DNA of 64,000 nucleotides, from the NCBI RefSeq assembly GCF_028368975.1, contig NZ_JAQNDM010000002.1:6070425-6134424 (forward strand), given 5' to 3'. The stretch comes from Stigmatella ashevillena (GTDB lineage: Bacteria; Myxococcota; Myxococcia; Myxococcales; Myxococcaceae). Positions 1,547 through 28,620 of this stretch are shown piece by piece. Both the position numbers and the translations under genes were made by a program. Every line of letters begins with the position of its first letter. Within the stretch, counting starts at the first letter, position 1. Below the pieces are notes generated by a model. It saw nothing but the letters and a program-made list of their open reading frames with translations, ran no database searches and was not told the DNA's origin.

Positions 1547-3646
1547 ATGGATTGTCACTCGCAGCGAGTTCTGTTGAGGAAGCTGTTTGGCTTTTCCACC
1601 TTGTTCTTGGCAGCCGCGTGCGGGTCCGGGGCAGTGTCCGAGTCACCCGGGCTGCAAGCCCAGAGCGCGGCGCTCGTCGCTGGCGAGCCGCTCGTGAGTG
1701 CGTCGAGCGGCCGTTGCCTCGATGTGGCACAAGAGAGCCGCACGCCCGGCACAGGGTTGCAGATTTACAGCTGCCACGGCCGCATCAACCAGGCCTTCAC
1801 CTTCACCGCCGCGGGCGAGCTGCGCACCTACGACAACACGCTGTGCGTGGACACGGCCTCGGGGCAGACGGCCCAGGGGACGCGCGCCGTCATCGCCACG
1901 TGCACGGGCTTGCCGGCGCAGCAGTGGGTCTTCAACGCGAACGGTGCCGTGGTTCACACGGCGAGCGGCCTGTGCCTGGACGTGGAGGGCGGGAAGACCG
2001 TGGACGGGACGCCCGTCATCGTCTGGGCCTGCAACGGACAGACGAACCAGAAGTGGTCCCGTCCCGCGGTCTTGGACACGCAAGCGCCCACGCCGCCGAG
2101 CAACCTCGTGACGAGCAACCTCACCTGCAACTCGGTGACGCTGAGCTGGACGGGCTCGACGGACGACGTGGGCGTCGCCTTCTATGACGTGTACCACGAC
2201 GGTCAGCAGATGAAGTCCGTGGACGGCAGCACGCGCTCGACGTCGCTCACGGTGGTGCCGGGCGCCACCTGGGGCTTGTACGTGAACGCGCGCGACGCCG
2301 CGGGCAACGTCTCGCAGGCCAGCCCCACGCTGTCATTGACGCCGCCGCAGTGCCAGGTGGACACCACGCCCCCGACGGCACCGACACAGCTTGTGGGCAG
2401 TGCGTCCGGAACGAGCGTGACGTTGAGCTGGAACGCCTCGACGGACAACGTGGGCGTCACTGGCTACGACGTGCTCCGCAATGGCGCCAAGGTTGGAACC
2501 GCGACGGGCACCACGTTCGCGGACAGCGGGCTCGCGGCGAGCACCGCATACACCTATGCGGTCGTGGCGCGAGATGGCCAGGGCAACCTCTCCACCGCGA
2601 GCAACGCGCTCACGCTCACCACGGGCGCGGCCTGCACGAACCCCATCTGCTCGGTGACGCAGGTCGCGACGGACACGGACATCCCGTGGGGGCTCGTGCC
2701 GCTCGCGGACGGGACGGTGCTCTACAGCCGCCGGGACGCGCAGGACATCGTGCGCTTGAATCCCGCGACGGGCGTGAAGACGACGCTCGGCACGGTGCCC
2801 AACGTGCAGAGCACGGACGGAGAGGGCGGCCTGCTCGGGCTCGCCGTCGCGCCGACGTTCAACACGGACCGCTGGCTGTACATCATGCACACGTCGCCCA
2901 CGGACAACCGCATCGTGCGCATTCAGGTCACGGCAGGCTTCACGTTGGATCTCGCGAGCGAGCAGGTGTTGGTGCAGGGGTTGTTGCGCAACAAGTTCCA
3001 CAACGGCGGACGCCTGCGGTGGGGCCCGGACGGCAAGCTGTACGCGAGCACCGGTGACGCGCAGAATGGCGCCAACGCACAGAACACCTCGAACCTCGCG
3101 GGCAAGGTGCTTCGCATCAACCCGGACGGCACCATCCCCAGCGACAACCCGTTCGGGAATTTCGTCTGGAGCTATGGCCACCGCAATCCGCAGGGGCTGG
3201 CCTTCGACTCGAGCGGCCAGCTTTGGGAGCAGGAGTTCGGAAACTCGGTCATGGACGAGACCAACCTCATCGTGAAGGGCGGCAACTACGGTTGGCCCAA
3301 TTGCGAGGGCACGGTCTCGCAAGGCGGAAGCGGTTGCGCGACGCCGGGCTACCTCGCGCCCAAGCAGACGTATTCCACGGCCGAGGGTTCGTGCAGTGGA
3401 ATCGCTGTCGTGCGTGACGTGCTTTACGTGGCGTGCCAGCGCGGCACTCGGCTGTACCGAGAGGTCATCTCGGGCTCGAGCCTCACCAACGTGACGCCGT
3501 ACTTCGTTGGAACGTACGGACGGCTGCGCACGGTCGAGCCGTCCGTGGACGGGAATCTCTGGCTCACCACGAGCAACTCGGGAGACAAGGACAGTATCCC
3601 CAACAACAGCAACGAGAAGATCTTCCGCGTGCTGCTCGGCAATTGA
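1547..3646 (+). CDS. Secreted RicinB-FN3-FN3-PQQ sugar dehydrogenase
   Basis: A 699-residue exported protein. The ATG at 1547 is chosen because an AAAGGAGG site sits 6 nt before it and a signal peptide with a lipobox-like LAAAC (Cys25) follows at once. Domains: ricin-B lectin (about 45-170, with QxW motif QQW), two fibronectin type III repeats (about 178-268 and 275-358), then a glucose/sorbosone dehydrogenase beta-propeller (about 365-699) with GGRLRWGPDGKLY, STGD, HRNPQG and NYGWP. Family members oxidise aldose sugars with PQQ at the cell surface; the lectin and FN3 parts would bind glycans. Single gene, divergent from the mini-peptide unit. The exact sugar is unknown. Confidence 0.88.
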   Translation: MDCHSQRVLLRKLFGFSTLFLAAACGSGAVSESPGLQAQSAALVAGEPLVSASSGRCLDVAQESRTPGTGLQIYSCHGRINQAFTFTAAGELRTYDNTLCVDTASGQTAQGTRAVIATCTGLPAQQWVFNANGAVVHTASGLCLDVEGGKTVDGTPVIVWACNGQTNQKWSRPAVLDTQAPTPPSNLVTSNLTCNSVTLSWTGSTDDVGVAFYDVYHDGQQMKSVDGSTRSTSLTVVPGATWGLYVNARDAAGNVSQASPTLSLTPPQCQVDTTPPTAPTQLVGSASGTSVTLSWNASTDNVGVTGYDVLRNGAKVGTATGTTFADSGLAASTAYTYAVVARDGQGNLSTASNALTLTTGAACTNPICSVTQVATDTDIPWGLVPLADGTVLYSRRDAQDIVRLNPATGVKTTLGTVPNVQSTDGEGGLLGLAVAPTFNTDRWLYIMHTSPTDNRIVRIQVTAGFTLDLASEQVLVQGLLRNKFHNGGRLRWGPDGKLYASTGDAQNGANAQNTSNLAGKVLRINPDGTIPSDNPFGNFVWSYGHRNPQGLAFDSSGQLWEQEFGNSVMDETNLIVKGGNYGWPNCEGTVSQGGSGCATPGYLAPKQTYSTAEGSCSGIAVVRDVLYVACQRGTRLYREVISGSSLTNVTPYFVGTYGRLRTVEPSVDGNLWLTTSNSGDKDSIPNNSNEKIFRVLLGN

Positions 3647-3698
3647 GCCGCACGTGCGGAGTGGGGCGGGCGGCGACGTAAAGCGCGGACGCTGCTGT

Positions 3699-3723
3699 GG
3701 AGGAGGGGAATCCCCCCTCCTCC
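3699..3723. terminator. Bidirectional hairpin between convergent genes
   Basis: Perfect 10-bp inverted repeat GGAGGAGGGG / CCCCTCCTCC with a 5-nt loop in the 138-bp gap between the dehydrogenase and the Ala/Gly-rich gene. No U-run follows, but position and stability fit a terminator serving both strands. Confidence 0.65.
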
Positions 3724-3784
3724 CCCCCCATGCGCCGCGCTCGGCAGGCACATGGCGATTGCCTCACCGAATCGGTCGGTGTGT

Positions 3785-4936
3785 CTACCAGCCGGTCGCC
3801 CTCGAGAAGAACTTCTCGAACCCGGACTTCTCGGGCTCCACCACGCCCGTAGAGGAGCCGACGCCCGCCGCTGAGGCCAGGCTGGTGCGCAGGCCCGAGG
3901 CAATGCCGGGCTGCATGTGGTGGCGCAGATCCAGCGCGACGTCGGTCTTGAAGTGGGTGCCCACGCCCATGGCGGCGTTGACGTCCGCGGAGTGCTTGAG
4001 GAAGCCGTTCTCCAGCCCGAGCTTCCCGCCTGCCTGGGCCGCCACGCCCGCCACCGCGCCCGCGGTGGCAGAGCCGTGCAGTCGGCCCAGATGTCCGCCC
4101 ACCGTGCCGTACGCTCCCGCAGTGGCGCTCGCGCCCACCTGGCCCGAGAGCATCGCCGTGGCCGTCCGCGGATCCAACGAAGCCACTCCTTCGGCATAGG
4201 CGCCGGCCGAGGCCTTGGCCTCGCCCTTGAGGTAGGCGCCCGCGTGCCGGTTGAAGTCATGGCTGACGCTGCCCGTCACGCCCACGCCCGTCTCCGCCTT
4301 GCCCGTCAGCGCGGCCGTGTACGCGTGGTTCTTCGTATCGGCCGAGATGCCCGCCTGCGCGTTCGCCCGGAAGGCATTGGCCTCGGCGGTGAACTGGCCG
4401 CTGGTGACGCCCAGCCGCCCCGCGTGAGCCTTCTGCACTTCGTAAGAAGCCTGCGGCCCGTTGATCTGGGCCTGCGCCGAGTGGTGAAACACGCCTCCGC
4501 CGTTGTGGTGGGTGGTGGACGCCTGCATCGAGCCCAGCTGGGCGTTCACCGTGCCGCCAAAGACATCCTTCTGATAGGGATTGCCCGGCTTGTCGATGAG
4601 CATGTTCTGCGTGGCGTTCGGGGGCGCCGTCAGCTTGTTGTCGCCGCCCGATGGCATCAGGTTCCCGGCCTCGCCCGTGGTCTTCTCGAAGGGGGTGTAC
4701 GCGGGGGCGCCCGAGAGCTGGCCCGGGTGCTTCAACGGAGTGGCCTGCGGGGCCGCCGCGGTGTTCGTCGCGGCCGGAGAGGACACGCCGGGCTTGGGGG
4801 TGGGCTTGGTGGCCAGCGGCGAGGTCGCCGAGGGCGGCAGCGTGGAGGCACGCGAGGGAGCCTGAGGACGGGACGCGGAGGGAGTGGGCAGGGTCGCGGA
4901 GCGGTGGGGCAGCTTGGATCCGAACGAGGTCTTCAT
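3785..4936 (-). CDS. Ala/Gly-rich hypothetical protein
   Basis: A 383-residue protein of unknown function, without signal peptide or clear membrane segment. Residues 1-90 are a disordered Pro/Ala/Thr/Ser-rich linker. From about 115 on, short Ala/Gly-rich segments recur with conserved spacing (ASAGAYAEG, ASATAGAYGTVGG, GSATAGAVAG, AQAGGKLG), alternating with His/Tyr patches, which suggests a repetitive beta-fold or a glycine-zipper core. The C-terminus (EKSGFEKFFSRATGW) is amphipathic. A GGGAG site lies 6 nt before the ATG. It is monocistronic and faces the kinase gene at 5257 across a 320-bp regulatory region. The architecture resembles myxobacterial secreted or polymorphic-toxin-like proteins, but nothing identifies an activity. 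Confidence 0.7.
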   Translation of the reverse strand: MKTSFGSKLPHRSATLPTPSASRPQAPSRASTLPPSATSPLATKPTPKPGVSSPAATNTAAAPQATPLKHPGQLSGAPAYTPFEKTTGEAGNLMPSGGDNKLTAPPNATQNMLIDKPGNPYQKDVFGGTVNAQLGSMQASTTHHNGGGVFHHSAQAQINGPQASYEVQKAHAGRLGVTSGQFTAEANAFRANAQAGISADTKNHAYTAALTGKAETGVGVTGSVSHDFNRHAGAYLKGEAKASAGAYAEGVASLDPRTATAMLSGQVGASATAGAYGTVGGHLGRLHGSATAGAVAGVAAQAGGKLGLENGFLKHSADVNAAMGVGTHFKTDVALDLRHHMQPGIASGLRTSLASAAGVGSSTGVVEPEKSGFEKFFSRATGW

Positions 4937-17316: not shown

Positions 17317-17890
17317 GGTGGCTCTCCAACGGGCGGGGACCTCCCCATACCCGTATGACGCGAGCCTGACGAACAATTCGTGATGGTGAATCATCCACAG
17401 GCCCCGCTGGGACCACAACGTGGTCCATTGAGCGACATGCACTGTCGCCCTTCGGATGACCTCGGCTCACCCAGTAGGGAATGATTCTCACTTCCGGACG
17501 TTCGAGGAGGCACTGAAGGACCTGCCCATCAGGGATTGGCGTCTAATAAGGGAAAACCCGTGATTTTTTGTCAGGGTTCCCCGTCTCGAGCCACAGAGAG
17601 CCTGGGCACCTGGAGAGAAGTGGGGGAATGACATGAAGGCGGTTGCGGCGTCAGGCGTGGACCTGTTGGGGCAGTTTCCCAGCGAGGGGCGAGGCGACGT
17701 GAGGGGCCTCCCGGAGCGCGTGGGACCCCCTCTGTAGCATCTCCCCCGGCGCCGCCGGTGCGCCCCCATGCTTCACCCATCGCCGTTGGTTGGCTCAACC
17801 CCTGGAAGGATTCGGAGGTCCCCATCCACCATCCCAGCAGCACACGAGGTCCCCAGCAGCCCGAAGTCCCCAGTAAGGAGTGAACGTTCC
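17317..17890. other. 574-bp intergenic region between lgt and subtilase
   Basis: Divergent control region with lower GC near 17540-17580. The only candidate gene is a 34-codon frame at 17633-17737 (plus) with a GGGGGA site 5 nt before its ATG; its codon use is not convincing. A weak imperfect hairpin (GGAAAACCC / GGGTTCC) lies near 17550-17581. Confidence 0.4.
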
Positions 17891-19300
17891 ATGAAGTCCT
17901 ATCTGTTGGTTTCCAAGGAGAGCATCGAGACCCAAGCGCGCGAGGGGGTCAGGGGGACGGCGAGGGGCGAGCGGCAGTTGCTGCGGTCCACGGCACTGCG
18001 GTTCGGAGGCGCGGAGCGGGCCGCCGAGGCCCTGCAACAGCTCGGGCTGCGCTCGGCGACCCTGCCGGGCGCGCGCCCCGCGGTCAGCCAGTCTTCGGAC
18101 AAGACGGACAAGAAGCAGGGGCGAGGGCGGGGCCATGTCGTCACGGCCCAGGCCACGCCCATCCCCGGGCCGGTGCAGGAGCTGACCGGCATGGAGAATG
18201 GCTCGTACCGCTACATGCCGCTCATCGGCGCGACGATGGCGCACTTCTACTCGGAGCAGGCCGAGCGCTCCGCGCGCGGCGAGCTGGAAGGCGACTTCGA
18301 GTTTGTCCCGGACGTGGTGCCGCTGTCCTTCCCCGGCCCCGTGGCGGGGCAGACGGGCCCGCGCAACCGCGGCATGGCCTCGTTGTCCGAACGGGAGTGG
18401 CCTGCGGAGTGCGGCGTGTCCCTCGCGCACGCCCAGGGCATCCGGGGGGCTGGCGTCATGCTGGGCATCCTCGACACCGGCGTGGACGCCGATCACCCCG
18501 AGCATGCCAGCAAGGTCATCCAGTTCCGTTACGTCTCGCTGTTTCCCAACTCCCCTCACACCCCAGCGCGCGACATCCGTGGGTTTGATCCGTCGGGCCA
18601 CGGCACGCACGTCTCGGGCATCGCGGCGGGGGTGCACCATGGGGTCGCCCCGGAGGTGGATCTCTACGTCGCCTCGGTCATCGAGTCGGAGACCATCCGC
18701 ACCAGCCTGGGGCGGGTGGCGGCGGGCATGGACTGGTTGCTGCACCAGTTCTCCCGGCCGGAGAACGCCACGCGTCCGGCGGTGGTGAACATGTCGCTGG
18801 GCTTCCCGGTGCAGTGCCCCGCGGGCATCAGCGAGGCCGACTACCGCCTCAACCTGAGGGCCCTGCAGAGCATGATTCGCCGGCTGCTGGACAGCAATGT
18901 GCTCCCCGTTGTTGCGGCAGGCAACAGTGGGCCAAACACGGTTGGTTACCCAGCAGGCTTCCCAGAGGCACTGGCCATCGGTGCAGTCGACTTTGACCGC
19001 CGAGTGGCCAGTTTCTCGGCCAGCGGAGCCGTGGGAAAGCGGTCCGTGCCGGACGTCATGGGCTACGGTGTTAACATCTACTCAAGCACCGAGCGGCGCT
19101 GCAACAACCAGGCTTTCTATGAGAGAATGAGTGGCACGAGTATGGCGGCCCCTTATGTAGCTGGTATTGCAGCACTGTACCGTTGCCGTGCTCCTGACTT
19201 GACGGCGTCTGAAGTGAGGGATTTGATACTGGGGAGTGCGGTCAAGCTCCCCCGCTCGTCCGTGCACCGGACAGGCAAGGGGCTGGCTGTCTACCGGTGA
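17891..19300 (+). CDS. Subtilisin-family (S8) serine peptidase
   Basis: 469 residues from ATG 17891, 10 nt after an AAGGAG site. No signal peptide is apparent; residues 1-60 look like an I9-type propeptide, followed by a basic linker. The catalytic triad is complete: Asp195 in GILDTGVDADH, His237 in SGHGTHVSG, Ser417 in GTSMAAP, with oxyanion Asn345 in AAGNSG. The first two thirds have extreme G/C third positions, but from about 18890 to the stop A/T third positions become frequent (GTT, GCA, ACT), suggesting a recombinant catalytic end. The next gene follows closely and encodes a small partner. Substrate unknown; either cytoplasmic or exported by a non-classical route. Confidence 0.88.
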   Translation: MKSYLLVSKESIETQAREGVRGTARGERQLLRSTALRFGGAERAAEALQQLGLRSATLPGARPAVSQSSDKTDKKQGRGRGHVVTAQATPIPGPVQELTGMENGSYRYMPLIGATMAHFYSEQAERSARGELEGDFEFVPDVVPLSFPGPVAGQTGPRNRGMASLSEREWPAECGVSLAHAQGIRGAGVMLGILDTGVDADHPEHASKVIQFRYVSLFPNSPHTPARDIRGFDPSGHGTHVSGIAAGVHHGVAPEVDLYVASVIESETIRTSLGRVAAGMDWLLHQFSRPENATRPAVVNMSLGFPVQCPAGISEADYRLNLRALQSMIRRLLDSNVLPVVAAGNSGPNTVGYPAGFPEALAIGAVDFDRRVASFSASGAVGKRSVPDVMGYGVNIYSSTERRCNNQAFYERMSGTSMAAPYVAGIAALYRCRAPDLTASEVRDLILGSAVKLPRSSVHRTGKGLAVYR

Positions 19301-19359
19301 CGGTGGTCGTGTCTGGGGTCGGCGCCATTCGAGCGCCGGGCCCGGGGAGGATGAAGGCC

Positions 19360-19770
19360 ATGAGCAGGAAACAGAACGGATCAGGAAAGAGCCTGTACGC
19401 CTTGCCGCGCGAGTCTCTCCAGGTCCGGGCCCTGCCGGGTCATCGCGGCGATGAGACGCTCTCCCCCGAGTGGATTGACGTCACGGTCATGCCCGCAGAG
19501 GACCGAGCGCCCCGTCACCCCATTGCCTCACGGCCTCGCAGCCGGGCAGACGTGTACCGGGACGGCTTGGCCGCCAATACCCAATTCCGGGACAGCCTGA
19601 TGCGCTGGTTGGAGGCGCACCACTTGCTGGGCGCGGTCCGGGCCGTCAGCGAGCCAGGCGGCTCCCTCCCCATGTTGACCTTGCGCTGTGCGCCCCGGGT
19701 TTTGGACCAGTTGCGGCGCGCTCCTGAGTTCGAAGCCGGCACAGCCATGTCGCTCGAACTTCATTCCTGA
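19360..19770 (+). CDS. Small companion of the subtilase, propeptide-like
   Basis: 136 residues from the ATG at 19360, with GGGGAGG 9 nt upstream. A GTG at 19297 that overlaps the subtilase stop (GTGA) is an alternative start giving 157 residues. The N-terminus is basic and disordered; residues 60-136 form an alpha/beta unit (DVYRDGL, a helix RDSLMRWLEAHHLL, strand PMLTLRCAP, helix VLDQLRRAPEF, strand AMSLEL) similar in layout to subtilisin propeptide/inhibitor I9 folds. I infer an intramolecular-chaperone or inhibitor role for the upstream peptidase. No database match is claimed. Confidence 0.6.
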   Translation: MSRKQNGSGKSLYALPRESLQVRALPGHRGDETLSPEWIDVTVMPAEDRAPRHPIASRPRSRADVYRDGLAANTQFRDSLMRWLEAHHLLGAVRAVSEPGGSLPMLTLRCAPRVLDQLRRAPEFEAGTAMSLELHS

Positions 19771-20116: not shown

Positions 20117-20863
20117 CTAGAAGTTGAGGCCGCCGTCCACATCGATGGTGCGGCCATTGAAGTAGTCGCACTCGAGGATGAACTTCACGGCGAGCCAGAT
20201 GTCCTCGGGCAGACCGATGCGGCCCACGGGGATGGCGGCCACCAGCGTGTCTCGCGCCTTCTGGTTCATCCCCTGAGTCATCGGCGTTTCGATCATGCCG
20301 GGGGCCACGGCGCCCACGCGGACGCCAAAGGGGGCGAACTCGCGCGACCAGGTGACGGTGTTGGCGGCCAGCGAAGCCTTGGCCGAGACGTAGTTGGACT
20401 GGCCGCGGTTGCCGTGCCGTGCAATGGACGACATGTTGACGATGACGCCGGGCTTCTGATCGGTCTCCACCATCTTGGTGACGACCTCGCGCACCATGAG
20501 GGTAGCGCCGGTCAGGTTGACGCCGATGACGGCGTTCCAGTCCGCGGTGCTCAGCTTCTTCACCTGGCCGGTGGCCTTGTCCTTCTTCACCAGCAGGGCG
20601 TCGCGCAGGATGCCCGCGTTGTTGATGAGGCCGTTGAGGCCTCCCATGGCGTGGTGGGCCCAGTGAACAAAGGACGTACAGTCCTCGTCGTTGGACACGT
20701 CCAGCCGGCGGCGGTGAATTCCCGCGGGGAGCGTGGCGAGCTTCTCCTCGCTGACGTCACCGACGGCGACCTGTGCACCCGCCTCGAGCAGCCGCTGGGC
20801 GAAGTGCGCGCCCATGCCTTGGGCGCCGCCCGTCACCACGATCTTCAGATCCTTGAGCTGCAT
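20117..20863 (-). CDS. Short-chain dehydrogenase/reductase, FabG-like
   Basis: 248 residues from ATG 20863, with AGGAGAG before it. A classical SDR: cofactor loop TGGAQGMG (11-18), NNAG, and the catalytic Ser in NMSSIA with YVSAK (Tyr-x-x-x-Lys). The PGMIETPM loop and the C-terminal DVDGG match the FabG/3-hydroxyacyl dehydrogenase group. It probably reduces a 3-oxoacyl or hydroxy-ketone substrate with NAD(P)H in the cytoplasm. It is 71 nt downstream of the beta-lactamase-like gene and close to the lipid gene cluster at 22-28.6 kb, which makes an acyl substrate plausible, but it is on the other strand. Confidence 0.88.
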   Translation of the reverse strand: MQLKDLKIVVTGGAQGMGAHFAQRLLEAGAQVAVGDVSEEKLATLPAGIHRRRLDVSNDEDCTSFVHWAHHAMGGLNGLINNAGILRDALLVKKDKATGQVKKLSTADWNAVIGVNLTGATLMVREVVTKMVETDQKPGVIVNMSSIARHGNRGQSNYVSAKASLAANTVTWSREFAPFGVRVGAVAPGMIETPMTQGMNQKARDTLVAAIPVGRIGLPEDIWLAVKFILECDYFNGRTIDVDGGLNF

Positions 20864-20934
20864 GGATGCTCTCCTGGAAGTGCGGTGGCACCGGCCACCG
20901 GAAAAGAGGGCCGGAGGGTATGTCCAACACGTGT

Positions 20935-21837
20935 TCACTGGCCAGCATCCGGTCCCTGAAACAGGACTCGCGTGGCATGGGCATGCACATGCCGGGAGAG
21001 ATCCACGATGAGGGCCCGGGCCACCTGCTCATCGGAGATGCCCCGGGTGAGCACGACGAGGACATACGGAGCGCGGCCCGGCGGGTAGACGATGGCCGCG
21101 TCATGGAGCACGGCGGTGATTTGTCCCGTCTTGTGCGCCACGGGGGTACCGGGCGGCAGCCCTGCCGGGATGAGCTCATTCAGCTCCTGCGCGAGGAGGA
21201 TGCCGCGCATGGCCTGGGTGGAGCGCGGCGAGGCGGCCTTGCCCCGCTCGAGGGCAGCCAGCAACGTGGAGAGATCCCTCGCCGTCGCGGTGTTGTTGAG
21301 CCCCTTCGCGTACGCCTTGCCGTCCTCCACGCCTCGCAGCACCGTCATCGAGGGCGCGCCCAGGGCGCGCAGCGTCCGGGTGACACGCTTCGCGTCCACC
21401 AGGGCGAGGAGGGAGTTGGTGGCCAGGTTGCTGGAGCGGATGATCATCCGCTTCAGCAACTCGCTGGCGGGCACGGGCTTGCCGAGGTGCTCGTAGAGCG
21501 CGGCGTCCTCGTCCTCCCGGGCGTCGAGCGAATAGGGCGAGCCATCCACGATGGAGGCGAAGCGGTTGGACAGGACGATGGGCTGCTCCAGGGCCAACCC
21601 GCCGGCGTCCACTTGCCGGAAGAACTCGACCATCACCGGCACCTTCATGGTGCTGGCCGCGTGGAAGGAGACGTCCGCCTCCAGGAACACCGCGTCCCGG
21701 GAATCGCCGAGATCCTGGTACGCGACGGCCACCGAAGCCCCCTTCACTTGGGAGATCCTTTGCTGGAGGATCTCCTGGAGGGAGCTGGCCCCCGGAGGGG
21801 CCGCGAGGAGCATGAGCAGCAGGGAGGTCTGGAGCAT
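20935..21837 (-). CDS. Class A beta-lactamase-like serine hydrolase
   Basis: 300 residues with an N-terminal signal peptide (hydrophobic 5-12, cleavage near APPGA). Penicillin-binding-fold motifs are present: S62-T-M-K65, SSN in the SxN position, and HKTG. In the omega loop, however, the region equivalent to E166-x-x-L-N reads AKGLN, so the deacylating Glu of true class A beta-lactamases is replaced by Ala. It is therefore better called a beta-lactamase-related hydrolase; it may bind peptidoglycan or esters or deacylate slowly. Monocistronic or leading the SDR gene; divergent from tetR. Confidence 0.82.
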   Translation of the reverse strand: MLQTSLLLMLLAAPPGASSLQEILQQRISQVKGASVAVAYQDLGDSRDAVFLEADVSFHAASTMKVPVMVEFFRQVDAGGLALEQPIVLSNRFASIVDGSPYSLDAREDEDAALYEHLGKPVPASELLKRMIIRSSNLATNSLLALVDAKRVTRTLRALGAPSMTVLRGVEDGKAYAKGLNNTATARDLSTLLAALERGKAASPRSTQAMRGILLAQELNELIPAGLPPGTPVAHKTGQITAVLHDAAIVYPPGRAPYVLVVLTRGISDEQVARALIVDLSRHVHAHATRVLFQGPDAGQ

Positions 21838-21987: not shown

Positions 21988-22680
21988 ATGAATCGGCCTT
22001 CAACTTCAGATCGCGTCTTGCCCGTGACGCCACGAGGCCAGAAGACACGGCAGAAATTGCTCCGGGCCGCCGAGAGCGTGTTCGGAGAGAAGGGCTATGA
22101 GCGCGCCTCCATCGCGGACATCACCCGGAAGGGTGGTGTGGCGCTGGGCACCTTCTACGTCTACTTCCCCGACAAGCAGTCCATCTTCGTGGAGGTGGTG
22201 GACGAGCTGGGGGAGCGCCTGCGTCGGCTCATCGCCGAGGCCGTGAGTGGGCTGAAGGACCGGCTCCAGGTGGAGCGCACGGGGCTGCGCACCTTCTTCG
22301 AGTTTGCCCGCAAGCACCCCAACCTCTACCGCGTGGTCCGTCAGGCCGAGTTCGTCGACGAGGCCTGCTACCGCCGCTACTACGACCGCTTCGCCAGGGG
22401 CTATGTGAGCGGCCTCACCCAGGCCATGGATGCCGGCCAGGTGCGCCGCATGGATCCCGAAGTGCTCGCCTATTGCCTGATGGGCATCGGGGACTTTCTC
22501 GGCATGCGCTGGGTCATGTGGGAAGACGATCCCGGCCTGGAGCGCGTGCTGGACACCGCCATGGCGCTCATCCGCCATGGGCTCGAGCCCCGCCCCTCGT
22601 CCAAGCCGGGCAAGTCCCCGGCGGCTTCCCCCAAGCGCGGCGCTCGTGGCGCGCGCAACGCTCTCCGGACCCTCGCATGA
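21988..22680 (+). CDS. TetR-family transcriptional regulator
   Basis: 230 residues. N-terminal HTH (about 18-64: KLLRAAESVFGEKGYERASIADITRKGGVALGTFYVYFPDK) is typical of TetR; the rest is the helical ligand domain, ending in a basic, disordered Lys/Arg/Pro tail. The stop overlaps the start of the FabH-like gene (ATGA), so it heads that operon and very likely senses a fatty acyl compound, by analogy with FadR/PsrA-type TetR regulators. A palindrome over the -35 region suggests autorepression. Confidence 0.9.
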   Translation: MNRPSTSDRVLPVTPRGQKTRQKLLRAAESVFGEKGYERASIADITRKGGVALGTFYVYFPDKQSIFVEVVDELGERLRRLIAEAVSGLKDRLQVERTGLRTFFEFARKHPNLYRVVRQAEFVDEACYRRYYDRFARGYVSGLTQAMDAGQVRRMDPEVLAYCLMGIGDFLGMRWVMWEDDPGLERVLDTAMALIRHGLEPRPSSKPGKSPAASPKRGARGARNALRTLA

Positions 22681-23672
22681 GATACGCCCAGATCCTCTCC
22701 ACCGGCCGCTATGTCCCCGAGAAGGTCATCACCAACGCGGACATGGACCGCATCCTCGGCGAGCCCGTGGGCGACTGGCTCGTCCAGAACGTGGGCATCC
22801 GCCAGCGCCATGTGATGGCGGATGACCAGGCCACCTCGGACCTGTGCGTGCCCGCCGCGAAGCAGGCCCTGCAGCGCGCGGGCACCCGCCCTGAAGAGCT
22901 GGATCTCATCATCATCGCCACGGACACGCCGGATTACCTCAGCCCGGCCACCGCCTCGGTGGTGCAGGCCAAGTTGGGGGCGGTGAACGCGGGGACGTAT
23001 GATCTCAACTGCGCCTGCGCCGGGTGGGTGACGGCCCTGGACGTTGCGAGCAAGACGATCGCCGCGGACGACAGCTACCAGCGCATCCTCGTGGTGGGCG
23101 CGTACGGCATGACGCGCTATGTGAACTGGAAGGACAAGAAGACCTGCACCCTCTTCGCGGACGGGGCGGGCGCCGTGGTGCTGGGCGCGGGCACCACGTC
23201 TGGCTTCCTGGGCGCGAAGCTGCTCGCCAACGGCGAGTACCACGACGCCCTGGGCGTCTACACCGGAGGCACGCACCGGCCCGCCACCGCGGAGTCGTTG
23301 CAGCTCACCGGCGGCAAGCCCGCGGTGCAGTTCGTGCGCAAGTTCCCCTCCACCTTCAACACCGAGCGCTGGCCGCAGCTCCTGGATGCCCTGCTCAAGC
23401 GCGGGGGCCTCACGTTGGACGACGTGAAGCTCTTCGTCTTCACCCAGCTCAACCTGCGCACCATCGAGGCCACCATGAAGACGTTGGAGCAGCCCATGGA
23501 GAAGGCCCACTACACGATGGACAAGTGGGGCTACACGGGCTCGGCCTGCATCCCCATGACGCTGGATGACGCGGTGGAGCAGGGCAAGGTGCGGCGCGGG
23601 GATCTGGTGGCTTTCTGTGCCAGCGGCGGTGGGCTCGCCATGGCCTCGGCGCTCTACCGCTGGACGGCCTGA
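22677..23672 (+). CDS. FabH-like ketoacyl synthase III with altered active site
   Basis: 331 residues, starting in the ATGA overlap with tetR. The thiolase fold is complete and aligns with E. coli FabH: nucleophile Cys114 in CACAGW, and the C-terminal GGGLAMAS. But the motif equivalent to VPHQAN reads VFTQLN (His to Thr256) and the one equivalent to HGNTSAAS reads WGYTGSAC (Asn to Tyr286). With His and Asn missing, decarboxylative condensation of malonyl-ACP is unlikely; acyl transfer or a non-decarboxylative reaction is more plausible. It is followed after 27 nt by an acyl-CoA ligase gene. Intact frame and normal codon use argue against decay. Confidence 0.85.
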   Translation: MRYAQILSTGRYVPEKVITNADMDRILGEPVGDWLVQNVGIRQRHVMADDQATSDLCVPAAKQALQRAGTRPEELDLIIIATDTPDYLSPATASVVQAKLGAVNAGTYDLNCACAGWVTALDVASKTIAADDSYQRILVVGAYGMTRYVNWKDKKTCTLFADGAGAVVLGAGTTSGFLGAKLLANGEYHDALGVYTGGTHRPATAESLQLTGGKPAVQFVRKFPSTFNTERWPQLLDALLKRGGLTLDDVKLFVFTQLNLRTIEATMKTLEQPMEKAHYTMDKWGYTGSACIPMTLDDAVEQGKVRRGDLVAFCASGGGLAMASALYRWTA

Positions 23673-25278: not shown

Positions 25279-25878
25279 ATGAAGAAGAAGCTGATGTCGG
25301 CGGTGATGGTGTGCGCGCTCGGATTCGTAGGCTGCGGGGATGATGATGAAGGGCCCACCCCGCCTCCGGCCACGAAGTTCAATACGGCCGATAGCATCCG
25401 GACCTACCTTGAAGGGAAGTCCATGCTGATGGAGGGGGGGAACATCCCGAGCCACCCCAATGGCTTCAGCGAGGACGTCAACTATGGCTCCGCCTCGCAG
25501 TGCTATGAGAAGGTTCTGATGACCAACTCCAGTGGTAACTTCACTGTGAACAGCACGCTGGCCACCATCCGGGCCGACGGGTGCGATCACACGGCGTCCG
25601 GCAGCCAGTCCTTCACCTCCACCGGCGTTCTCATCGAGAACGTGAAGGAGGACGCCTCGTGCTTCGACATCACCATCACCTTCGTGGGCTTCAAGCAGGT
25701 GGGCCGCGGCATGCTGAGCCAGGATGGCAAGATGCTCACCCTGGAGCTCTACTTCGAGGGCCAGGCCGTGGGCGCGACCTGTGCGGCGGGGGCCGTGGGC
25801 GCTTCCACCGTGACCCTCAACAAAGCGCCCTTCACCGGCAACGCGAAGCAGGTCTATACGGTCTCCGCCGGGCAGTAG
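25279..25878 (+). CDS. Lipoprotein of unknown function
   Basis: 199 residues. Signal peptide MKKKLMSAVMVCALGFVGC with lipobox Cys19, then an acidic GDDDEGPTPPP spacer that would favour outer-membrane location. The mature part is Thr/Ser-rich and beta-strand-like with four or more Cys that may form disulfides. Start 9 nt after an AGAGGAG site, 28 nt after the ligase gene. Placed between a ligase and a beta-barrel gene, it may help deliver a lipid to or from the outer membrane; this is inference. Confidence 0.8.
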   Translation: MKKKLMSAVMVCALGFVGCGDDDEGPTPPPATKFNTADSIRTYLEGKSMLMEGGNIPSHPNGFSEDVNYGSASQCYEKVLMTNSSGNFTVNSTLATIRADGCDHTASGSQSFTSTGVLIENVKEDASCFDITITFVGFKQVGRGMLSQDGKMLTLELYFEGQAVGATCAAGAVGASTVTLNKAPFTGNAKQVYTVSAGQ

Positions 25879-27591: not shown

Positions 27592-28620
27592 ATGACGACT
27601 TCTCGCGCCGTCCCGGCCCTGCTGCTCTCCGCCGTGCTCGCCTCGGGGTGTGTCCGTTCATACCGGTCCGAGCCGCCCCTGGACTTCCAGGACTTTTCCT
27701 ACACCTCGCTCGACGGCCAGCCGTGGCCCCTCCAGCGTGTGCCGCTGCCCAAGACGGCGGAGACGTACCAGATGGCCTCCGTCCCCCAGGTGGCCTATGT
27801 GGAGCTCAATCCCACGGGGGCCCGCACGCTCGTCTTCATTCACGGGCTGGGCTCCTACCTGAAGTTCTGGCGCTATCAGCTCGATGCCTTCGCCCAGCAG
27901 GGCTACCGCGTGGTGGCGGTGGATCTGCCCGGCTATGGCAAGTCCGACAAGCCCGCCACCTTCCCGTACACCATGGAGGCCATGGCGGACGTGGTGCGCG
28001 AGGTGGTGCAGACGCTGGGCGTGGAGCGCCCCCTGCTGGTGGGGCACTCGATGGGGGCGCAGACGGCGCTCTCCTACGCCATCCGCTACCCCGAGGAGCC
28101 CGCCGCGCTGGTGCTCACCTCGCCCGCGGGCTTCGAGAAATTCTCCGACAAGGAGAAGCGGTGGTTCCGGCGCTCGCTCACCTCCGCGTTCATCAAGTCC
28201 TCGCCCGAGTACAACATCTGGGGCAGCGTGCGGCAGGCCAACTTCTCGCGCTGGCGTCCGGAGTTGGAGTGGCTCATCGAGGAGCGCGTGCGCGTGGTGG
28301 GCACGCCCGCGTTCGACGCCTATGCTTACGCCAACGTGCGCACCGTGGATGGGCTGGCGCACAATGACTTCGTGCGCGAGAACCTGGGCCGTGTCCAGGC
28401 GCCCGCGCTCATCGTCTTCGGTGAGGAGGACCGGCTCATTCCCAATCCGTTCCTCCATGGGGGCTGGGCCCGGGACATCATGGCGTACGGACACGCGGGG
28501 CTGCGCGGCTCGTCGCTGGTGGGGCTCGAGGGTTGCGGCCACTCGGTGCAGCTCGACTGCCCAAAGGAGTACAACGCGGCGGTGACCACGTTCCTCGGAA
28601 AGCTGGCGCCCGCCCCCTGA
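27592..28620 (+). CDS. Lipid-anchored alpha/beta hydrolase
   Basis: 342 residues. N-terminal signal with lipobox-like LASGC (Cys20), so anchored in the envelope. Alpha/beta hydrolase features: oxyanion region FIHGLGSYLKFW, DLPGYGKSDKP, nucleophile elbow GHSMGA, and the catalytic His in GCGHSVQ; the Asp is probably in FGEEDRLIPNP. Start 2 nt after the barrel gene. An esterase or lipase for the compound handled by the operon is the simplest role. A GGCGCCCG/CGGGCGCC hairpin ends the transcript. Confidence 0.87.
   Translation: MTTSRAVPALLLSAVLASGCVRSYRSEPPLDFQDFSYTSLDGQPWPLQRVPLPKTAETYQMASVPQVAYVELNPTGARTLVFIHGLGSYLKFWRYQLDAFAQQGYRVVAVDLPGYGKSDKPATFPYTMEAMADVVREVVQTLGVERPLLVGHSMGAQTALSYAIRYPEEPAALVLTSPAGFEKFSDKEKRWFRRSLTSAFIKSSPEYNIWGSVRQANFSRWRPELEWLIEERVRVVGTPAFDAYAYANVRTVDGLAHNDFVRENLGRVQAPALIVFGEEDRLIPNPFLHGGWARDIMAYGHAGLRGSSLVGLEGCGHSVQLDCPKEYNAAVTTFLGKLAPAP

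Follow-up and report, generated by a model that had tools for sequence, protein, structure and literature searches.

KASIII-fold proteins with threonine and tyrosine in place of the catalytic histidine and asparagine: a phylum-spanning subfamily with a possible role in acid catabolism

Proteins of the beta-ketoacyl-acyl carrier protein (ACP) synthase III (KASIII) type are commonly annotated as starters of fatty-acid synthesis, and FabH of Escherichia coli requires both its catalytic His and its catalytic Asn for decarboxylation (PMC4807248). Here we describe a protein of this fold encoded in the 10.95 Mb genome of Stigmatella ashevillena (Myxococcota), within a stretch of 64,000 nucleotides (contig NZ_JAQNDM010000002.1, positions 6,070,425 to 6,134,424) that we refer to as the window. 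The protein passes the broad NCBIfam model for beta-ketoacyl-ACP synthase 3 (NF006829, 286.4 bits against a cut-off of 249), yet it lacks the residues for that reaction: the nucleophile Cys114 (Cys112 of E. coli FabH) is kept, while Thr256 stands at the site of His244 and Tyr286 at that of Asn274. Judged by their sequences, proteins with this Cys-Thr-Tyr arrangement, here called TQ proteins, are a distinct subfamily of the KASIII fold that spans phyla. We propose, with a probability of roughly 40%, that the window's protein uses a FabH scaffold for thiolase-like retro-Claisen cleavage and is encoded in an uptake-and-catabolism operon.

Several described systems resemble this one in part. The OleA/OleB/OleC/OleD module consists of the same four kinds of part, namely a KASIII-fold enzyme, an alpha/beta hydrolase, an AMP-ligase-like enzyme and a short-chain dehydrogenase (SDR), and OleA keeps the Cys-His-Asn triad; unlike that module, the TQ gene sets are in part accompanied by import genes. 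PqsC, of PqsBC, is likewise FabH-like and has kept the Cys and lost the Asn, but it retains the His, and its Asn site is occupied by Val, whereas the TQ proteins have also lost the His and carry Tyr. The cysteine of PqsC is octanoylated at 76.6 per second without the His and at 86.9 per second with it, and the enzyme condenses without the Asn (PMC4807248). ChlB3 and CerJ are KASIII acyltransferases with a Cys-His-Asp triad, and share with the TQ proteins the fold, an altered triad and a Cys nucleophile (PMC9573744); they differ in having His296 and Asp301 (ChlB3 numbering, five residues apart), at the presumed equivalents of which the TQ proteins have Tyr286 and mostly Cys291. Ltp2 and Sal, also of the thiolase superfamily, use Tyr-based catalysis for C-C cleavage in catabolic pathways (PMC12329534), as we propose for the TQ proteins. 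Unlike these, they are of the SCP2-thiolase type, have a DUF35 partner and use retro-aldol rather than acyl-enzyme chemistry.

A gene pair of the same kind has been reported on in Myxococcus xanthus, where MXAN_0215, said to resemble the FabH-like MXAN_0853 closely, and the fatty acyl-CoA (coenzyme A) ligase MXAN_0216 are both upregulated with Sinorhizobium meliloti as prey, MXAN_0216 being the only one to rise among at least six ligase paralogues (PMC9548883). Disruption of MXAN_0215 is cited there, from earlier work, as leaving lipid composition unaffected, and the authors propose that the ligase serves to take up exogenous fatty acids and that MXAN_0215 takes part in forming iso-fatty acids (PMC9548883). 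A word-based literature search found no earlier description of the Thr/Tyr pair or of the gene set, which is weak evidence given that motif letters cannot be searched for and that subscription papers lie mostly outside such a search.

The open reading frame is intact, as an earlier note made from the DNA sequence had held: it translates into 331 residues with its sole stop at the end. Pairwise ratios of nonsynonymous to synonymous substitution (dN/dS) between the gene and seven relatives lie at 0.13-0.34, which places it under purifying selection, and the absence of internal stops together with these ratios rules out a pseudogene. Both Pfam domains are matched well above threshold (PF08545, 84.7 bits against a cut-off of 24; PF08541, 95.8 against 26.6). 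The stricter fabH model TIGR00747 is failed (252.2 against 292.1 bits), as are the models for HMG-CoA synthase (NF003274, 65 against 244; TIGR00748, 36.2 against 353.35; TIGR01835, 29.1 against 360.35). An AlphaFold2 model built from 54 relatives has a mean confidence score (pLDDT) of 95.8 and superimposes on E. coli FabH with a Z score of about 47 and a root-mean-square deviation of 1.5 over 317-318 residues, at 32% identity. By sequence, its closest counterparts among solved structures are ordinary FabH chains. With FabH the TQ protein shares the fold, the nucleophilic Cys, a Gly-rich C-terminal loop and both Pfam domains.

The reading of Thr and Tyr at the His and Asn sites, also made in the earlier note, is borne out by four phmmer alignments to solved FabH chains, all gap-free across both motifs, which place VFTQLN under HQAN and WGYTGS under GNTS. 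We found no alternative alignment that restores the His and the Asn, and an ordinary FabH with a misaligned motif is excluded by the gap-free alignments. The His closest to Tyr286 is H278, eight residues earlier, which aligns with Val266 of E. coli FabH.

Comparison of 54 TQ rows with 18 FabH rows, from which two long-branch copies of the window's genome (L003 and L004) were dropped, shows that the change extends well beyond these sites (Table 1 gives the counts at the catalytic positions and at 316). Relative to FabH (residue in brackets), the TQ rows have Ser89 [Phe87] in 51 and Thr in 3; Asp83 [Thr81], Tyr143 [Asp140], Gly288 [Ser276], Pro224, Asn228 and Trp232 in all 54; Asn38 [Arg36] in 39; and Lys154 [Arg151] in 44. 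At position 291, five residues on from Tyr286, Cys is found in 50 rows, Ser in 2 and Ala in 2. We take several of these co-changed positions to line the pocket, as in FabH structures. Cys114, Thr256, Gln257, Gly285, Tyr286 and Gly288 are present in all 80 loci of the genome scan described below, and in 47 of the 48 loci of the window's phylum with a strong match, the exception (L047) being an ordinary FabH. Ser or Thr occupies position 316 in all 74 scan loci that are readable there, the alignments of the other six ending before it.

Neither the window protein nor its clade has the Cys-His-Asn triad of FabH, and a Cys-His dyad of the PqsC type is absent as well. Nor is the Cys-His-Asp triad of CerJ and ChlB3 seen at the sites that we presume to be equivalent, ChlB3 itself not having been aligned residue by residue, and no His is invariant across the 54 TQ rows. 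On this comparison of sequences, changes so concerted and invariant accord better with a new reaction or substrate than with decay, and we infer that the hydroxyls of Thr256 and Tyr286 may form a new oxyanion site or an acid/base pair. Two of the three textbook catalytic residues have been lost, as they might be in a catalytically dead paralogue retained as a scaffold or regulator; we hold this to be very improbable, given that the Cys, Thr, Tyr and several more residues are invariant across phyla and that selection on the gene is purifying.

Members of the subfamily were sought by a scan of one genome per species (84,980 species) with a 13-row alignment as the query, which returned at least 562 relatives. 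The best-scoring 80 were kept; they are not a random sample, nor are they independent, since related lineages recur. TQ proteins occur in Myxococcota, Chloroflexota, Acidobacteriota, Bacteroidota, Ignavibacteriota, Balneolota, Bdellovibrionota, Fidelibacterota (Marinimicrobia), Pseudomonadota, Thermodesulfobacteriota and Asgard archaea, many of the relatives being metagenome bins; rows titled Shewanella, Thalassovita and similar are bins and may be mis-binned. Close relatives in Corallococcus and Pyxidicoccus, at 85-90% identity, together with the subtilase and PopD-like genes described below, mark the window as myxobacterial.

Within the window's phylum, 174 of 195 genomes (its own included) have a KASIII match at 1e-40; among the matches listed, 72 genomes, again counting its own, reach at least 58% identity, and three further genomes with motifs read (G193, G009 and G017) lie at 42-48%. 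Two of the seven genomes of the window's genus (G095 and G097) have no match nearer than about 40%, a patchiness that is as expected for an accessory pathway. Of 247 genomes sampled in the phylum to which a Bacteroidota member belongs, 40 gave strong profile matches (1e-100 or better, motifs unread), as did 16 of 148 in that of an Asgard archaeon, one of the latter matches being partial and one containing two stops. The idea that the gene is phage or plasmid cargo was rejected on limited evidence. A pattern scan of viral contigs matched four stretches, with no relative among them, and among the 40 plasmid matches listed (346 more records were not) one Chloroflexota entry reached 47.6% identity and the remainder at most 38.8%, the motif being unread.

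The clade that the earlier note had suggested looking for did form. In a first tree of 54 TQ, 20 FabH-like and 7 third-type rows, the TQ rows make up one side of a branch with support 95/98; the FabH-like rows comprised E. coli fabH together with three KASIII from the window's genome and 16 drawn from eight others, and included L003 and L004 under that label. These two were dropped from a second tree (54 TQ, 18 FabH and 7 other rows), from which the motif regions and seven further diagnostic columns had been removed, and there the TQ branch has support 98/95. In the second tree, no TQ row falls among the Cys-His-Asn FabH rows. A TQ profile searched against ten whole genomes found one TQ copy in each, at 480-546 bits, all other KASIII scoring 282 or less.

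In order to compare gene neighbourhoods, we counted tblastn matches (E 1e-15, with window and relative proteins as queries) in the 80 distinct scan loci and in 17 ordinary KASIII loci, the latter taken from nine genomes that each also hold a TQ copy. Of the 80 TQ loci, eight are shorter than 7 kb, which lowers the neighbour counts, and some of the 80 are cut off at contig ends. We prefer these counts to gene clusters built over 99 loci, which merge or miss genes (they recover the KASIII itself in 90 of the 99) and include two same-DNA pairs, L038/L063 and L042/L083.

Of the 80 TQ loci, 53 have an acyl-CoA ligase no more than 2 kb away on the same strand; none of the 17 controls does. Within 6 kb, an alpha/beta hydrolase (five queries of this fold) is found in 51 TQ loci against 1 control, an SDR in 37 (26 on the same strand) against 4, a symporter in 18 against 1, a TonB receptor in 13 against none, the outer-membrane barrel in 11 against none and an ABC binding protein in 7 against none. 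Families identified among the neighbours include a sodium:solute symporter and a weak MarR match (both L128), Peripla_BP_6 with a branched-chain permease (L109) and a TonB receptor (L101), as well as TetR, OMP_b-brl_4 and MFS.

The ligase, as the most constant neighbour, would also suit a KASIII-like acyltransferase, the function suggested in the earlier note: the ligase would make an acyl-CoA, from which Cys114 would take the acyl group and hand it on to an acceptor (an alcohol, an amine or a thiol). A relative can still form the acyl-Cys once its His is lost (PMC4807248), and in ChlB3 and CerJ acyltransferases of this fold exist (PMC9573744). Those two enzymes use a His-Asp pair, however, where the TQ proteins have Tyr and mostly Cys at the presumed equivalents and no invariant His; moreover, no AcpP-like carrier was found in the 80 loci, and the most frequent neighbour clusters contain no obvious acceptor-making gene. 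An acyltransferase, the main rival to the thiolase-like reading, is possible but not established, and we regard it as somewhat less likely than that reading.

The genes of fatty-acid synthesis are distributed in the opposite sense. With E. coli proteins as queries, matched over whole loci with bit-score floors of 30 for AcpP and 60 for the others, AcpP, PlsX and FabD were found in none of the 80 TQ loci, against 4, 3 and 4 of the 17 controls, and FabF in 1 TQ locus against 8 controls. FabG, which also finds other SDRs, matched in 40 TQ loci and 4 controls. The zero counts for AcpP, PlsX and FabD bear on a further alternative, that of a condensing enzyme whose nucleophile needs no decarboxylation by His and Asn (a 3-oxo acid or acyl-CoA, for example), or which decarboxylates slowly, perhaps for the synthesis of iso-fatty acids or a signal. 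Its fold and overall sequence are FabH-like, an iso-fatty-acid role has been suggested for MXAN_0215 (PMC9548883), and both PqsC lacking Asn and FabH lacking His, which keeps about a tenth of its activity, still condense (PMC4807248). Set against this are the zero counts, the import genes in part of the operons and the reported lack of effect of the disruption on lipid composition (PMC9548883), and we consider a condensing role unlikely.

We read this set of results as pointing to loci that take up, activate and degrade an acid, and not to lipid synthesis; we infer this from the ligase, hydrolase, SDR and transport neighbours, the zero counts for AcpP, PlsX and FabD, and the TetR- and MarR-type regulators. 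The catabolic reading is also in keeping with the disruption of MXAN_0215 without effect on lipids and with the rise of MXAN_0215 and MXAN_0216 during predation (PMC9548883). This context, the many joint changes and the span of the subfamily across phyla were missed by the earlier note.

Turning to the reaction itself, an acyl-cysteine is probably formed, and the enzyme is likely to act by cleaving or transferring acyl groups. By analogy with PqsC, Cys114 is plausibly acylated from acyl-CoA without a His. We envisage that a secreted or lipid-anchored hydrolase would act on a polymer, lipid or lactone to liberate a 3-hydroxy (or 3-oxo) acid; that a porin together with a symporter or ABC importer would bring the acid into the cell; that the ligase would convert it to its CoA thioester; and that the FabG-type dehydrogenase would yield the 3-oxoacyl-CoA. 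Cys114 would then attack the 3-oxo carbon, with release of acetyl-CoA, the enolate being held and protonated by the hydroxyls of Tyr286 and Thr256, and the Cys-Thr-Tyr enzyme would pass the shortened acyl group to CoA. This retro-Claisen scheme leans on two precedents, the His-independent acylation of the PqsC cysteine (PMC4807248) and the Tyr-based C-C cleavage of Ltp2 and Sal (PMC12329534).

The second of these precedents raises the alternative that the TQ protein is itself a retro-aldolase that depends on Tyr and takes 3-hydroxyacyl-CoA as its substrate, in the way that Ltp2 and Sal act on steroid side chains. Besides the Tyr-based catalysis in the superfamily (PMC12329534), the neighbourhoods of Chloroflexota members contain a DUF35/ChsH2-type protein (L069) and an SCP2-type thiolase (L064). 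A retro-aldolase would have no need of the invariant Cys as a nucleophile, though, and an SDR able to oxidise the 3-hydroxyl is near in 37 of the 80 loci, which makes this distinctly improbable in our view.

Returning to the thiolase-like scheme, a number of observations make us cautious about it. We know of no KASIII-fold thiolase, and the window protein fails the thiolase model TIGR01930 (20.4 against 240.55 bits). An SCP2-type thiolase is nearby in 5 of the 99 loci and may itself do the thiolysis there. In 27 of the 80 TQ loci, some of them ended by contig ends, the search found no same-strand ligase within 2 kb. The link to the SDR is the weakest, with 26 of the 80 loci on the same strand within 6 kb and 4 of the 17 controls also having one, and the hydrolases and ligases belong to generic families that name no substrate. 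MXAN_0215 and MXAN_0216 are taken as orthologues of the window's pair from gene kind and adjacency. Finally, the earlier note had expected the replacements to stop malonyl decarboxylation, and FabH's requirement for both His and Asn makes this probable but not certain: replacement of the His alone lowers FabH activity only 10-fold, so that some condensing activity is conceivable (PMC4807248).

As to the substrate, 3-hydroxy acids derived from prey, such as those of polyesters or of lipid A, would agree with the predation data. Polyhydroxybutyrate was considered, phbABC being present in the prey S. meliloti (PMC10315480); no substrate is claimed. Polyhydroxybutyrate-depolymerase models gave no score above cut-off in the eight hydrolases tested.

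In the window the gene does sit in an operon with an acyl-CoA ligase, as the earlier note had said, but the operon is larger than was supposed, also containing the genes for a TetR-family regulator, a putative lipoprotein, an outer-membrane barrel and a hydrolase (Table 1). From the KASIII gene through the ligase, lipoprotein and barrel genes to the hydrolase gene, the gaps are, in order, 27, 28, 52 and 2 bases.

Table 1. Coordinates of the TQ gene, its key codons and its neighbours in the window, and of KASIII copies of a second type at other TQ loci
Feature	Position	Strand	Basis
FabG-type short-chain dehydrogenase, possible partner	20117..20938	-	NCBIfam PRK08217 275.9 bits, below cut-off 298
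TetR-family regulator	21988..22680	+	PF00440; 4-base overlap with KASIII start (ATGA)
KASIII-fold protein, Cys-Thr-Tyr (TQ) subfamily, 331 aa	22677..23672	+	PF08545 and PF08541, AlphaFold2 model, tree
Cys114 codon, kept nucleophile (E. coli Cys112)	23016..23018	+	C in 54/54 TQ rows and 18/18 FabH rows
Thr256 codon, replaces catalytic His244	23442..23444	+	T in 54/54 TQ rows; H in 18/18 FabH rows
Tyr286 codon, replaces catalytic Asn274	23532..23534	+	Y in 54/54 TQ rows; N in 18/18 FabH rows
Ser316 codon, replaces Phe304	23622..23624	+	S 48, T 6 of 54 TQ rows; F 14, V 2, I 1, Y 1 of 18 FabH rows
AMP-forming acyl-CoA ligase, 516 aa	23700..25250	+	PF00501, PF13193
Putative lipoprotein, 199 aa, no known family	25279..25878	+	Lipobox by eye; no Pfam or NCBIfam match
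Outer-membrane beta barrel, porin-like, 552 aa	25931..27589	+	No Pfam match; Foldseek
Alpha/beta hydrolase, probable lipoprotein	27592..28620	+	PF00561; lipobox by eye
Second odd KASIII copies, other loci	L064:13645-14688; L084:1341-2321 and 3128-4105; L085:3712-4770; L109:12948-13973; L134:2716-3720; L045:768-1760 (-); L096:15-1037 (-)		

The solved chains nearest to the ligase are 8weu and 8wev, named fatty-acyl-CoA synthase / feruloyl-CoA synthetase. Relatives of the 199-residue lipoprotein occur in 8 of the 99 loci, two of these being the same DNA, and relatives of the 552-residue barrel in 20 of the 99, including two same-DNA pairs. The AlphaFold2 model of the barrel is of low confidence (pLDDT 65.8); its best Foldseek match is AlgE, followed by the Occ/OprD porins, with TM scores of 0.42-0.52 of the query, and the predicted resemblance to AlgE and Occ can serve as a hint. 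The barrel and its counterpart at L128:12633-14237 belong to no Pfam family; from the window to Bacteroidota, Ignavibacteria and relatives, the protein is conserved at 32-36% identity in a similar gene order.

Other genes flank the operon. A class 2 lipase (PF01674; 28644-29669, minus strand) with a probable secretion signal by eye faces the operon's end, and would fit lipid scavenging. A class A beta-lactamase-like protein (PF13354; 20935-21837, minus strand) is encoded between the dehydrogenase and the TetR gene. Upstream, at 17768-19770 on the plus strand, a subtilase is followed by a PopD-like inhibitor (NCBIfam PopD, 218.7 bits against a cut-off of 200), the two being probably the PopC/PopD pair of myxobacterial signalling.

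A second odd KASIII type is present in several of the Chloroflexota and Asgard TQ loci and in one locus of the window's phylum (L045). Three copies that were tested (L064, L109 and L134) score 403-413 bits with NCBIfam PRK06840, whose cut-off is 315. The seven aligned copies, which exclude that of L109, all retain the Cys; at the Asn site they carry His, with Asp following five residues later, so that in sequence these residues look like the Cys-His-Asp triad of ChlB3 and CerJ. Every locus of this type except L045 has an acyl-CoA ligase (cluster 1). The Asgard genomes G196 and G203, which may be incomplete, each yielded just two KASIII at E 1e-10, the TQ copy and one of the PRK06840 type, and an ordinary FabH was found in neither at this threshold. 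In the window's own genome, the copy L003 (G000:C2:632944-633891) keeps the His motif as HQPN and has GSVG for the expected GNTS, the Asn thus seeming to be replaced (tblastn, 28% identity).

The TQ branch is widespread and apparently uncharacterised. A broader history is one that we put forward only tentatively, and hold to be less likely than the thiolase-like reaction itself: a FabH scaffold would have been converted once to a Cys-Thr-Tyr enzyme that cleaves C-C bonds, a module of KASIII, ligase, hydrolase, reductase and importer would have spread among distant bacteria and Asgard archaea, and predatory myxobacteria would use it to eat the lipids or polyesters of their prey. If the role proposed for the TQ branch is confirmed, the annotation of these proteins would be corrected in many genomes, a Tyr-based active site would be added to a textbook fold, and an undescribed catabolic route common to Asgard archaea, Chloroflexota, Bacteroidota and bacterial predators would be indicated.

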